A DNA stretch of 64,000 nucleotides from Burkholderiales bacterium (GTDB taxonomy: Bacteria > Pseudomonadota > Gammaproteobacteria > Burkholderiales > Casimicrobiaceae): positions 124,001-188,000 of the forward strand of contig JADYZP010000042.1 of assembly GCA_020853025.1 (NCBI GenBank), given 5' to 3'. The translations under genes and the position numbers were made by a program. Numbering within the stretch: the stretch's first letter is position 1; each line of letters opens with the position of its first letter. Shown here one piece after another: positions 37,141-40,345 of the stretch. The notes beneath the pieces were generated by a model. The model saw only the letters and a list, made by a program, of their open reading frames with translations, made no database searches and had not been told where the DNA came from.

Positions 37141-37154
37141 TTGATCGAAATCAA
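37141..37154 (+). promoter_or_regulatory. FNR/ANR box upstream of nrdD
   Basis: TTGATCGAAATCAA matches the FNR/ANR consensus TTGAT-N4-ATCAA exactly. It lies 129 bp before the nrdD ATG, in the 190-bp coaX-nrdD gap. Since nrdD works only without oxygen, anaerobic activation by FNR is what one would expect. Confidence 0.8.
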
Positions 37155-37282: not shown

Positions 37283-39343
37283 ATGTCAGCGCAGCATACG
37301 ACGCTGGCGCGCCAGGCGCCGGTACGGGAATCCGAAGCACCGGCGCTGCCCGCACAGGTTATCAAGCGCGGCGGCGAGCGCGTAGCCTTCGAACTCGGAA
37401 AAATCGTCTCAGCCATCACGCGCGCAGGTGCGGCGACCGGCGAGTTCGACGACGCTGAAGCGAAGGCGCTGGCCGCGGCCGTGGGCCGCGTGCTCGCGCA
37501 CCGGCACACCGGCGGCACTCCGGACATCGAGACGATCCAGGACTGCGTCGAGCACACGCTGGCCGGCGCTGGCTGGTTTCACACGGCGCGCGCGTACATC
37601 GTCTACCGCGACCGTCACGAGCGGCTGCGCGCCGACCGCAAGACGCTGGTCGACGTCGCCGCGTCGGTCGACGAATACCTGGAGCAGCGCGATTGGCGCG
37701 TCAACGCCAACGCCAACCAGGGCTATTCGCTCGGCGGCCTGATCCTCAACGTCTCCGGCAAGGTCGTCGCCAACTACTGGCTGTCGCACGTCTACGCGCC
37801 CGAGATCGGCCGCGCGCACCGCGAGGGCGACGTCCACATCCACGACCTCGACATGCTCGCCGGCTACTGCGCCGGCTGGTCGCTGCGGCAGCTGCTGCAC
37901 GAAGGCTTAAACGGCGTGCCGGGCAAGGTCGAGGCCGGGCCGCCGAAACACATGAGCAGCGCCGTCGGGCAGATCGTCAACTTCCTGGGTACGCTGCAGA
38001 ACGAGTGGGCCGGCGCACAGGCGTTCTCGTCGTTCGACACGTACATGGCGCCGTTCGTCCGCCGCGACGCGATGAGCTACGACGCCGTCAGGCAGTGCAT
38101 CCAGGAACTCATCTACAACCTGAACGTGCCATCGCGCTGGGGCACGCAGACGCCGTTTACCAACCTCACCTTCGACTGGGTGTGCCCGGAGGACCTGCGC
38201 GAGCAGATCCCCGTGATCGCCGGCGTCGAGATGCCGTTCAGCTACGGCGATCTGCAGTCGGAGATGGACGTCATCAACCGCGCCTACATCGAGGTGATGA
38301 CGACCGGCGACGCCAAAGGCCGCGTGTTCACGTTTCCGATTCCGACCTACAACATCACGCCGGACTTCGACTGGGAGCATCCGAACTGCGAAGCGCTGTT
38401 CGCGATGACGGCCAAGTACGGCCTGCCGTACTTCCAGAATTTCCTCAACTCCGAATTGAAGCCCAACATGATCCGGTCGATGTGCTGCCGGCTGCAGCTC
38501 GACCTGCGCGAGCTCTTAAAGCGCGGCAACGGGCTCTTCGGCTCGGCCGAGCAAACCGGCTCGGTCGGCGTCGTCACGCTGAACTGCGCCCGCATCGGCT
38601 ACCTGCACGCCGGCGACGAGATCGGTCTCTTTGAGCGCGTCGACGAGCTGATGGACTACGCGCGCGACAGCCTCGAGGTCAAGCGCAAGGTCATCCAGCG
38701 CCTGATCGACCAGGGGCTCTTCCCCTACACCAAGCGCTATCTGGGCACGCTGCGCAATCACTTCTCGACGATCGGCGTCAACGGCATCAACGAGATGGTG
38801 CGCAACTTCACGTGCGGCCATGACGACATCACGACCGAGTACGGTCACGCCTTCGCCGTGCGGCTGCTCGATCACGTGCGCGCGCGCATCGTCGGCTTCC
38901 AGGAAGAAACGGGCCACATGTACAACCTGGAAGCCACGCCGGCCGAAGGTACGACCTACCGCTTCGCGAAGGAAGACCGCAAGCGCTGGCCCGACATCCT
39001 GCAGGCCGGCACCACGGAGCGTCCGTACTACACGAACAGCTCGCAGCTGCCGGCGGGCTTCACCGACGACCCCTTCGAGGCGCTCACCCGCCAGGAGGAG
39101 CTGCAGAAAAAGTACACGGGCGGCACCGTGCTGCATCTGTACATGAGCGAGCGCCTGAGTTCCGCCTCGGCGTGCAAGGCGCTGGTGCGCCGGTCGCTCG
39201 AGCGCTTCCGGCTGCCGTACATCACGATCACGCCGACGTTCTCGATCTGCCCGCAGCACGGGTATCTCGCCGGTGAGCACGAGTTCTGCCCGCGCTGCGA
39301 CGAAGAGGCGCTGGCGAAGAAGCGGCGGAAACAGGCCGCGTAG
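37283..39343 (+). CDS. nrdD: Anaerobic (class III) ribonucleoside-triphosphate reductase, large part without glycyl-radical loop
   Basis: Reduces NTPs to dNTPs under anoxia. 686 residues from an ATG preceded by GGGGAGGGG. An ATP-cone (~25-120, IKRGGERVAFELGKIVSAI) is followed by the ten-stranded barrel; MCCRL (Cys401-402) holds the thiyl Cys and GSVGVVTLN the next strand. The C-terminus ends in a zinc-type ICPQHGYLAGEHEFCPRC and a basic tail. The glycyl-radical segment (R-V-x-G-Y), normally at the extreme C-terminus of NrdD, is missing and is encoded by the next gene. A split enzyme is therefore proposed. Confidence 0.92.
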   Translation: MSAQHTTLARQAPVRESEAPALPAQVIKRGGERVAFELGKIVSAITRAGAATGEFDDAEAKALAAAVGRVLAHRHTGGTPDIETIQDCVEHTLAGAGWFHTARAYIVYRDRHERLRADRKTLVDVAASVDEYLEQRDWRVNANANQGYSLGGLILNVSGKVVANYWLSHVYAPEIGRAHREGDVHIHDLDMLAGYCAGWSLRQLLHEGLNGVPGKVEAGPPKHMSSAVGQIVNFLGTLQNEWAGAQAFSSFDTYMAPFVRRDAMSYDAVRQCIQELIYNLNVPSRWGTQTPFTNLTFDWVCPEDLREQIPVIAGVEMPFSYGDLQSEMDVINRAYIEVMTTGDAKGRVFTFPIPTYNITPDFDWEHPNCEALFAMTAKYGLPYFQNFLNSELKPNMIRSMCCRLQLDLRELLKRGNGLFGSAEQTGSVGVVTLNCARIGYLHAGDEIGLFERVDELMDYARDSLEVKRKVIQRLIDQGLFPYTKRYLGTLRNHFSTIGVNGINEMVRNFTCGHDDITTEYGHAFAVRLLDHVRARIVGFQEETGHMYNLEATPAEGTTYRFAKEDRKRWPDILQAGTTERPYYTNSSQLPAGFTDDPFEALTRQEELQKKYTGGTVLHLYMSERLSSASACKALVRRSLERFRLPYITITPTFSICPQHGYLAGEHEFCPRCDEEALAKKRRKQAA

Positions 39344-39380
39344 GTCGCGCTGAATATTGAAGACTACTCCGGAGACGACG

Positions 39381-39566
39381 ATGAACTCGATGACCGACAT
39401 GCAACACCTGGTCGACCCCGTGACGCTGACCGATGATGAGCGCCAGCGCTGCGAAGTGTGGACACGCGTGATGGGCTATCACCGGCCTGTCGCTTCGTTC
39501 AACATCGGCAAGAAGGGCGAGCACGGCGAACGGCAATTCTTCCGCGAGGAACGCGCGCGGTCCTAG
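39381..39566 (+). CDS. Separate glycyl-radical peptide of class III ribonucleotide reductase
   Basis: 61 residues with its own ATG and GGAGA ribosome-binding site, 37 bp after nrdD and in a different frame. The core TRVMGYHRPVASFNIGKKGE is the C-terminal glycyl-radical motif of NrdD (Gly32 in VMGY), followed by the usual FNxGKK...FFREE tail. An extra 25-residue N-terminal segment (Asp/Glu-rich) precedes it. It should dock on the large NrdD and carry the radical installed by NrdG, acting as a small subunit in trans. Its stop codon overlaps an in-frame GTG of nrdG. Confidence 0.85.
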   Translation: MNSMTDMQHLVDPVTLTDDERQRCEVWTRVMGYHRPVASFNIGKKGEHGERQFFREERARS

Positions 39567-39601
39567 TGGTGCCGCCCTACGCTTTCCTCGATGGTTCCGA
39601 T

Positions 39602-40345
39602 ATGCCCGATGGCACCGACTCGTCGGTGGCGGTGACCGTTGCGCCGCCGTTGCCGTTGCGCGTCGGCGGCTTCGTGCCGTTCACGACGACCGATTATCCT
39701 GACGCGCTGGCGGCCGTGGTTTTTTGCCAGGGCTGTCCGTGGCGGTGCGCGTATTGCCACAACCCGCACCTGCAGCCTCCGCGCGGCGATGCCGAGGACG
39801 ATTTCGCACGCATCCTCGACTGGCTCTCCACGCGCCGCAGACTGCTCGATGCCGTCGTTTTTTCCGGCGGCGAGCCGACCGCGCAGGCGGCGCTGGGCCG
39901 GGCGATCGACGACGTGCGGGCACAGGGCCTGCTGGTCGGTCTGCACACCGGCGGCGCGTATCCGCGACGGCTCGCCAGCGTACTGCCCCGGGTCGACTGG
40001 GTGGGCTTCGACGTCAAGGCGCCCGGCGACGCCTATTCATCGGTCACCAGCGTGGATGGCAGCGGGCGGGCCGCGCTGGCCAGCCTCGACCTGGTCCTCG
40101 CTGCCGGGGTCGCCTACGAGGTGCGCACGACCGTCCATCCGCAGCTGACACCCGCCGCGGCACTCATGCGCCTTGCCGGCGAACTCGCCTCCCGCGGCGT
40201 GATCCGCTGGGCGCTGCAGCCGTTCCGCCCGACCGGCTGCGCCGACGAGGCGCTGGTCGCGGCGGCGCCACGCGGCGCGACCCTCGACGACGCACTGCTC
40301 ACGCGGCTGTCGGCGCGCGTGCCGATCATCGACGTGCGCGGATAG
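39602..40345 (+). CDS. nrdG: Anaerobic ribonucleotide reductase-activating radical SAM enzyme
   Basis: Generates the glycyl radical using S-adenosylmethionine and a [4Fe-4S] cluster. 247 residues from ATG 39602; a GTG at 39566 overlaps the upstream stop and may be used instead. The cluster motif is C45-x3-C49-x2-C52 (CPWRCAYCHNP), followed by FSGGEPT and VGFDVKAPGD, which are radical-SAM strands. It is of the long type with LRVGGFVPFTTTDYP, close to pyruvate-formate-lyase activase. Confidence 0.93.
   Translation: MPDGTDSSVAVTVAPPLPLRVGGFVPFTTTDYPDALAAVVFCQGCPWRCAYCHNPHLQPPRGDAEDDFARILDWLSTRRRLLDAVVFSGGEPTAQAALGRAIDDVRAQGLLVGLHTGGAYPRRLASVLPRVDWVGFDVKAPGDAYSSVTSVDGSGRAALASLDLVLAAGVAYEVRTTVHPQLTPAAALMRLAGELASRGVIRWALQPFRPTGCADEALVAAAPRGATLDDALLTRLSARVPIIDVRG

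Follow-up and report, generated by a model that had tools for sequence, protein, structure and literature searches.

The anaerobic class III ribonucleotide reductase encoded in a 64,000-nucleotide stretch of a Burkholderiales genome (hereafter the window) is very likely a three-piece enzyme, in which a 61-residue protein serves as a trans-acting radical subunit for an NrdD body made without a glycyl-radical loop. That the radical loop is carried by a separate, conserved gene under selection is shown by comparative data; the docking of the small protein and the formation of a radical on it are inferred, and no direct biochemistry is available. We favor the trans-acting reading because the arrangement is not a sequencing error, because the small gene shows an excess of synonymous differences, and because the NrdD phylogeny requires five switches between split and fused forms, with fused proteins lying inside the split clade.

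The window genome (G000, with the window on contig C42) comprises 3.65 Mb in 71 contigs and is 94% complete. On the + strand, where all of the features described here lie, nrdD (37283-39343) is followed by the gene for the small protein (39381-39566) and then by nrdG2, which extends to 40345. A search of the whole genome, at the completeness given above, returned a single NrdD and a single small gene. The 686-aa NrdD body, identified through Pfam and NCBIfam as a class III ribonucleotide reductase without the radical loop, carries an ATP-cone domain at residues 25-113 (37355-37621; PF03477, 71.6 bits), a finger-loop MCCR motif containing Cys401 and Cys402 (38480-38491), and a zinc-type motif, CPQH...CPRC (39248-39298), near its end. 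The split falls after this zinc-type motif, and the body terminates 14 residues past it. The finger-loop motif resembles the SCCR motif of T. maritima NrdD (PMC4493059); SMCCR was invariant in 39 aligned NrdD rows, and we made no formal NrdDh subclass assignment for the window protein. After a gap of 37 bp and in a different frame, the small gene, recognized by its Pfam and NCBIfam matches and its relatives, is preceded by a GGAGA ribosome-binding site (39371-39375) located 5 nt before the ATG. Sequence and conservation place the radical glycine, Gly32, at 39474-39476 within TRVMGYHRP. The adjoining radical SAM activase, nrdG2 (39566-40345), matched TIGR02495 with 189.5 bits (cut-off 131) as well as PF04055; its frame opens with a GTG at 39566 that overlaps the stop of the small gene, and an alternative ATG is present at 39602.

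The NrdD body and the small protein divide one Pfam family between them. The body matched NRDD (PF13597) at positions 2-530 of 562 with 573 bits, and the small protein matched positions 531-562 alone with 28.7 bits (cut-off 26.2), indicating that the small protein is the segment missing from the body. Against NF006126, the body covered profile positions 3-654 of 684 (1125 bits, cut-off 548) and the small protein positions 649-682. No other Pfam family matched the small protein at E <= 1, and in Pfam and NCBIfam it matched only NrdD families, with no match to the pyruvate formate-lyase-type radical domain. The locus therefore meets the class III criteria of an NRDD body with an ATP-cone and of an adjacent NrdG activase, and fails the criterion of a glycyl-radical loop at the C-terminus of the NrdD chain itself, as this loop sits on the other gene. 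A first-pass annotation, made from sequence alone, had claimed that NrdD ends after the zinc-type motif without its loop, that the loop is encoded by a distinct 61-aa gene 37 bp downstream with its own frame and ribosome-binding site, and that nrdG comes directly next; all three claims held. Its proposal of a radical-bearing subunit in a three-part system is supported by comparative data, with docking and receipt of the radical from NrdG still inferred. The breadth of the split and the stand-alone viral and plasmid copies described below were absent from it.

Upstream of nrdD, a pattern scan identified a perfect copy of TTGATCGAAATCAA (37141-37154, + strand), which we take to be an FNR/ANR-type box. 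This was the sole perfect match within the window; with up to one mismatch allowed, 2 boxes were observed against 0.40 expected. Boxes of this type (at most one mismatch) were found near 38 of 148 NrdD ORF starts, as compared to 134 of 3500 random 400-nt stretches.

To describe the arrangement across relatives, we counted the 175 loci that scored 500 bits or more against the window NrdD, leaving out 14 loci with distant NrdD types (L152-L156, L166-L172, L189, L206) and loci with no NrdD match. A separate small gene was present downstream on the same strand in 159; 12 loci were fused, and 4 had no small gene within the locus. Some loci share a genome or record (L105 and L109, for example), so the counts are not all independent. 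Among the 159 linked split loci, the frame of the small gene relative to nrdD was offset by 2 in 58, by 1 in 56 and by 0 in 45, and the gap between the nrdD stop and the first modelled residue of the small protein was 47 nt at the median, with extremes of -17 and 2325 nt. A single stop codon is all that separates the genes in 23 of the 45 same-frame loci. Of 236 small ORFs with an ATG 9-40 aa ahead of the motif, 223 carry a Shine-Dalgarno-like word before such an ATG, whereas over all codon positions of these stretches the figure was 1049 of 6110; several ATGs per ORF could score in this count. In one genome (G100), a gene for a B12-binding radical SAM protein separates nrdD from the small gene. 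G044 has the two genes on one contig but about 9.5 kb apart, and in G092 and G557 it lies on a different long contig, the G557 genome being just 0.7 Mb; at such distances, a protein acting in trans is needed. G181 was considered as another detached case and rejected as an assembly break, with nrdD near one contig end and the small gene plus nrdG opening another contig.

The small gene is strongly conserved around the radical glycine. We collected 256 small ORFs with at least 40 bits to the profile (176 cellular or plasmid, 80 viral), of which 252 have TRVxGY and four have SRVMGY or SRSMGF; none has lost the glycine. Because these ORFs were found through the profile and through patterns that contain the loop, the frequency of loop decay cannot be read from them. 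The loop around the glycine was the best conserved part of the protein, with 18 invariant columns in 43 rows. In the same rows, a cysteine lying eight residues N-terminal to the glycine also looked invariant, a status rejected by the larger set: counting distinct cores only, it is present in 123 of 125 from cells and in 58 of 63 from viruses, and of the five viral cores without it, one is an offset artefact from a contig-edge copy. Over 40 codons and 149 comparisons of the window gene with cellular and plasmid genes, we counted 1979 synonymous and 1181 non-synonymous codon differences. This count is crude and uncorrected for relatedness, and one of the comparisons is with the window's own copy.

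The split form is widespread, recurring in alpha-, beta- and gammaproteobacterial loci and extending to small genomes of 0.7 to 1.6 Mb. Among 61 near genomes, 21 (the window's own included) had a small-protein match at E <= 0.01, that in G034 being weak at 20 bits. In a survey of 150 genomes from the window's order, 45 matched NRDD and 44 had an NrdD body, of which 38 were split. A fused close relative was found in two genomes (G154, G116) and only distant fused types in four (G162, G040, G089, G167); G178, a fragmented genome of 580 contigs, has a small gene without an NrdD body. The split and fused classes in this survey were assigned by hand from two search tables. A phylum-wide sample of 299 genomes contained 46 with NrdD, of which 12 had a separate small gene by the small-protein profile (A1) and two had a fused match, the remainder being mostly distant fused types. 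In the class of Rhodovulum (L094), 23 of 192 genomes matched NRDD and 20 matched A1, 15 of these with a separate small frame and five within a long fused frame. In GTDB species genomes, at least 571 of the 594 stretches that fitted the search patterns were confirmed to encode a relative; 80 of these loci were fetched, and the patterns included MGYHRPVA, which biases the set toward conserved copies. Cupriavidus necator H16 carries the same split operon on pHG1, with H16_RS32675 as the small gene, and Paracoccus denitrificans is also among the organisms with the two-chain version.

Phylogenetic analysis of NrdD placed fused proteins within the split group. The tree was built from 98 of 151 eligible rows after near-copies were removed, with columns less than 60% filled dropped. 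It contained a group of 90 made up of 82 linked-split, four unlinked-split and four nested fused rows, the last being L105 (Actinomyces oris), L106 (Acidiphilium cryptum) and L150 with L151, and it required five switches between split and fused forms. A second tree, made under a mixture model from 46 hand-chosen rows of the 98, again required five changes, and placement of its 11 fused rows in one clade was rejected (p-AU 5e-107). The nested fused proteins keep the cysteine before TRVMGY as split proteins do (QPCEIW in L150), whereas older fused rows have threonine at this site (TEVYSR in L159 and L161; TKVW, TQVW or TLVW types in L186-L192). Single positions in the trees are unsure, since long branches were flagged in both, many forks were weak, and L105 and L106 shifted between them. 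Sulfuricurvum kujiense (L108) is split yet clusters with fused rows, and a split of this kind also occurs in G411 (L166), whose NrdD is of a distant type scoring 72 bits to the window NrdD. These two cases indicate that splitting probably arose more than once.

In the mechanism we propose, the NrdD body would supply the ATP-cone, the barrel, the finger-loop cysteines and the zinc site, and the TRVMGYH loop of the small protein would insert into the barrel at the site that an ordinary NrdD fills with its C-terminal loop. NrdG would then abstract a hydrogen from Gly32, and the resulting glycyl radical would generate the finger-loop thiyl radical. Docking and radical transfer from NrdG are inferred from homology, the operon and the re-fusions. 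In P. copri NrdD, the radical domain has a zinc site and, after it, a buried loop that holds the radical glycine (PMC11226230); the window cut falls between the two, so that the body retains the zinc motif and the small chain has the loop and tail. Both class III enzymes and pyruvate formate-lyase are cut by oxygen at the radical, and YfiD takes the place of the end that pyruvate formate-lyase loses (PMC3019208, PMC8683613). The likely benefit of the split, again an inference, is that oxygen would destroy only a cheap subunit that could be replaced without remaking the large body.

Structure prediction did not settle whether the small protein reaches the active site, a question the first-pass annotation had left to a structure model. 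We used AlphaFold on a natural same-frame locus (L040) in which the single TGA was read as W to give one chain, with 39 alignment rows at 72-84% identity. The mean pLDDT was 72.9, with values below 50 at residues 702-740, where the radical glycine lies, and at 380-387 and 392-405, which include part of the finger loop. Modelled by itself, the small protein also gave a poor prediction (mean pLDDT 58). Given the low pLDDT in these regions of the L040 model, docking is neither supported nor refuted.

Published work on Cupriavidus bears on the function of the operon. The CH34 genome paper, citing Siedow et al., states that H16 cannot denitrify completely without NrdDG, and it names the CH34 pair as Rmet_5137 and Rmet_5139, omitting the number between them (PMC2864759). 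Siedow et al. 1999 (PMC93980) reportedly gave a mass of 76.2 kDa for NrdD and, again reportedly, 30.9 kDa for NrdG. The computed mass of the H16 NrdD body without the loop is 76,191 Da; H16 NrdG as annotated has 239 aa and 25.4 kDa, which does not fit the reported 30.9 kDa. In the open-access literature searched, we came across no mutant lacking just the small gene.

Several other explanations of the locus can be put forward. One is that the small protein is only a spare part, with NrdD drawing on some other radical source and the small protein acting as a back-up in the manner of YfiD. The extra copies of the small gene in G112, G138, G529, G545 and G469 and the precedent of YfiD and Y06I (PMC8683613) speak for it, but the bodies of split NrdDs lack a radical loop. 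With a loop-less NrdD, and with one NrdD and one small gene in the window genome, the part looks needed rather than optional, and we consider a purely back-up role very improbable. It remains possible that extra copies additionally serve as spare parts. A second explanation is that the small protein is a regulator or a partner of NrdG that no longer carries the radical. The small gene does overlap nrdG in seven annotated plasmid loci and abut it in an eighth, but the glycine loop is the best conserved part of the protein, and the fused relatives nested in the split clade have ordinary architecture; we hold this explanation to be highly unlikely as well.

A sequencing error, a programmed frameshift or stop read-through could instead yield one long NrdD in the cell, and the same-frame loci divided by a single stop codon would fit read-through. 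Against this stand the similar numbers of loci at each of the three offsets, the wide range of spacing, the start codons with ribosome-site words in nearly all small ORFs examined, and the small genes far from nrdD in G044, G092 and G557. A frameshift error joining the two genes was the test set by the first-pass annotation; the varied frame and spacing and the genes lying kilobases or contigs apart exclude it for the family as a whole, and we regard this explanation in its wider form as all but eliminated. Finally, the idea of a decaying locus, in which nrdD has been truncated and the operon has become a pseudogene since other ribonucleotide reductases meet the need, can point to two PF02867 matches (other ribonucleotide reductase genes) in the window genome, but is practically ruled out by the recurrence of the split across alpha-, beta- and gammaproteobacteria with a synonymous excess and the glycine kept, and by its presence in the small genomes noted above.

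Returning to the radical-subunit reading, stand-alone copies of the small gene also occur in viruses, plasmids and other mobile DNA. In IMG/VR, the small-protein profile found 131 of 138 pattern matches, and in all 80 loci fetched the loop was on its own frame with no NrdD match in the locus. These 80 loci represent 63 distinct cores, several of them near-copies, with flanks of at most 8 kb, and some of the records may be other mobile DNA. We searched 46 of the 80 records whole, chosen mainly for length, and none of the 46 contained an NrdD body: matches fell only at profile positions of about 530-562 (41 above the Pfam cut-off), together with an extra 15-bit match at NRDD 503-529 in G705. None of the records had a 90% completeness rating, so these viruses could still encode an NrdD in another part of their genomes. 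Of the 46 records, 16 matched the terminase large subunit family phrog_2, four of these with in-frame stops. A major head protein, a head protease and a tape measure protein lie beside the small gene in L238, and tail and virion proteins in L256. Among 110 ORFs from 16 viral loci, 203 PHROG families were matched, the commonest being DNA helicase, integrase and tail fiber, each in three ORFs. The smallest viral frames not cut by a contig end encode 44 aa (L250, L256). PHROG 4132, whose function is unknown, was hit by the window protein and by seven of the eight viral proteins tried. In the archaeal virus ANMV-1, the stand-alone radical domain is 144 aa long and has CxxC pairs of its own. Among GenBank phages, the window small protein had no match at 1e-5 and viral queries gave one and two weak matches, so the small gene is nearly absent among named phages.

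Plasmids and other cellular mobile DNA carry the gene as well. On pALVIN01 of Allochromatium vinosum, the small gene is present with no NrdD body on the whole plasmid; on pAt1 of A. tepidum, it is present with no NrdD body in the 10.6 kb examined. Extra or orphan cellular copies adjoin a DUF3363 gene (L193), a recombinase gene (L195) and an AcaB gene (L202), and no mobile neighbor was recognized beside the small gene in L194, L196 or L201. As a mark of orphan copies, the FNR box was checked in 13 loci, which took in L200 (the G181 break) and L125 (nrdD 2.3 kb away); a one-mismatch box was present in one (L199) and none in the other 12. A bolder reading, toward which we lean with reserve and in which action in trans is inferred, is that NrdD radical loops are a trans-acting, exchangeable part shared by cells and mobile DNA: phages, plasmids and integrative elements would carry only a tiny subunit, as short as 44 residues, with which to activate the host's anaerobic ribonucleotide reductase or to restore it after oxygen damage, and PHROG 4132 would be such a part. 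If this is true, a virus would gain a dNTP supply at the cost of one very small gene.

The split enzyme can be set against several known systems. It shares with class III NrdD (PF13597, NF006126; T. maritima NrdDh, P. copri, T4) the barrel, the finger-loop cysteines (MCCR versus SCCR), the zinc motif, NrdG and the radical-loop sequence, as well as an ATP-cone, which is found in known class III enzymes though not in all of them. It differs in that the radical loop and C-terminal tail form a separate protein, cut off between the zinc site and the loop. YfiD/GrcA and T4 Y06I are likewise small stand-alone glycyl-radical domains, also phage-borne, and they work in trans (PMC8683613); however, their partner is pyruvate formate-lyase rather than a ribonucleotide reductase, and YfiD repairs an enzyme that was synthesized complete with its loop and then cleaved by oxygen, whereas the window NrdD is made without one. 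The split class II enzyme NrdJa/NrdJb is also a ribonucleotide reductase with its C-terminal part on a second gene (PMC9669993), but NrdJb has zinc-finger and IscU-like domains and no radical, and the cofactor is B12. Phage nrdD genes can likewise be in pieces (PMC3653736); those are mostly interrupted by introns, inteins or endonuclease genes, unlike the old, recurrent and separately translated split described here. Papers on ribonucleotide reductases place the radical domain at the NrdD C-terminus (e.g., PMC11226230, PMC9669993), and we found no description of a split class III enzyme of cells in the literature searched, which left out most subscription papers. Further papers drawn on were PMC2795772, PMC11528403, PMC9531940 and PMC4372165.

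The simplest reading of the split is that it is a constitutive version of the YfiD principle, in which the breakable end has become a separate, cheap subunit, the benefit being an inference. The split accounts for the protein of about 60 residues annotated as "anaerobic ribonucleoside-triphosphate reductase". A whole alpha-, beta- and gammaproteobacterial clade, including the much-studied C. necator H16 and Paracoccus denitrificans, has a two-chain version of the class III ribonucleotide reductase, and in these organisms a fragile, oxygen-sensitive enzyme may run on a cheap, replaceable part.

The small protein carries a cysteine, Cys24 (window 39450-39452), eight residues N-terminal to the radical glycine. 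A cysteine at this spacing was present in 123 of 125 distinct cellular cores and in 58 of 63 viral cores, whereas older fused NrdDs, in which body and radical loop share one chain, have threonine where the small proteins have Cys24. The loop itself was altered in two genomes of about 0.9 Mb each (loci L165 and L178): SRSMGFIRP replaces TRVMGYHRP, with the glycine retained.

A distant NrdD type was split separately in genome G411 (locus L166). Its body stops after its own zinc motif and is accompanied by a 60-aa frame (L166:3569-3751) that starts MGKCNM and bears the radical-loop sequence RRITGYLV; an nrdG-like frame comes after it.

The number and setting of genes for the putative small radical subunit also varied. 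The 2.1-Mb genome G469 held three differing copies (L205:4251-4491, L201, and L202) but a single NrdD body. Extra or orphan small genes distant from nrdD were seen at L193, L195, and L202 and on the Allochromatium plasmids L209 and L213, and these were either near mobile-element genes or plasmid-borne. On the Azospira plasmid pAZI09 (L207:3188-10040), the class III set of nrdD, the small gene, and nrdG was nested within a class I pair, with the alpha subunit before and the beta subunit after, and the cluster adjoined an integrase and a Tn3 transposase.

Viral contigs from IMG/VR (L214-L293) displayed the NrdD radical loop on its own, with no NrdD body within the locus (for example, L238:7929-8216 and L256:8001-8132). 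The shortest such protein had 44 residues, and seven of the eight tried matched PHROG 4132, a phage family of unknown function. In the ANMV-1 virus (KP703175.1), one gene (L294:2186-2620) bears the annotation anaerobic ribonucleoside triphosphate reductase, and the ANMV-1 paper inferred an oxygen-sensitive reductase from it, although it encodes a 144-aa stand-alone radical domain bearing CxxC pairs rather than the entire enzyme.
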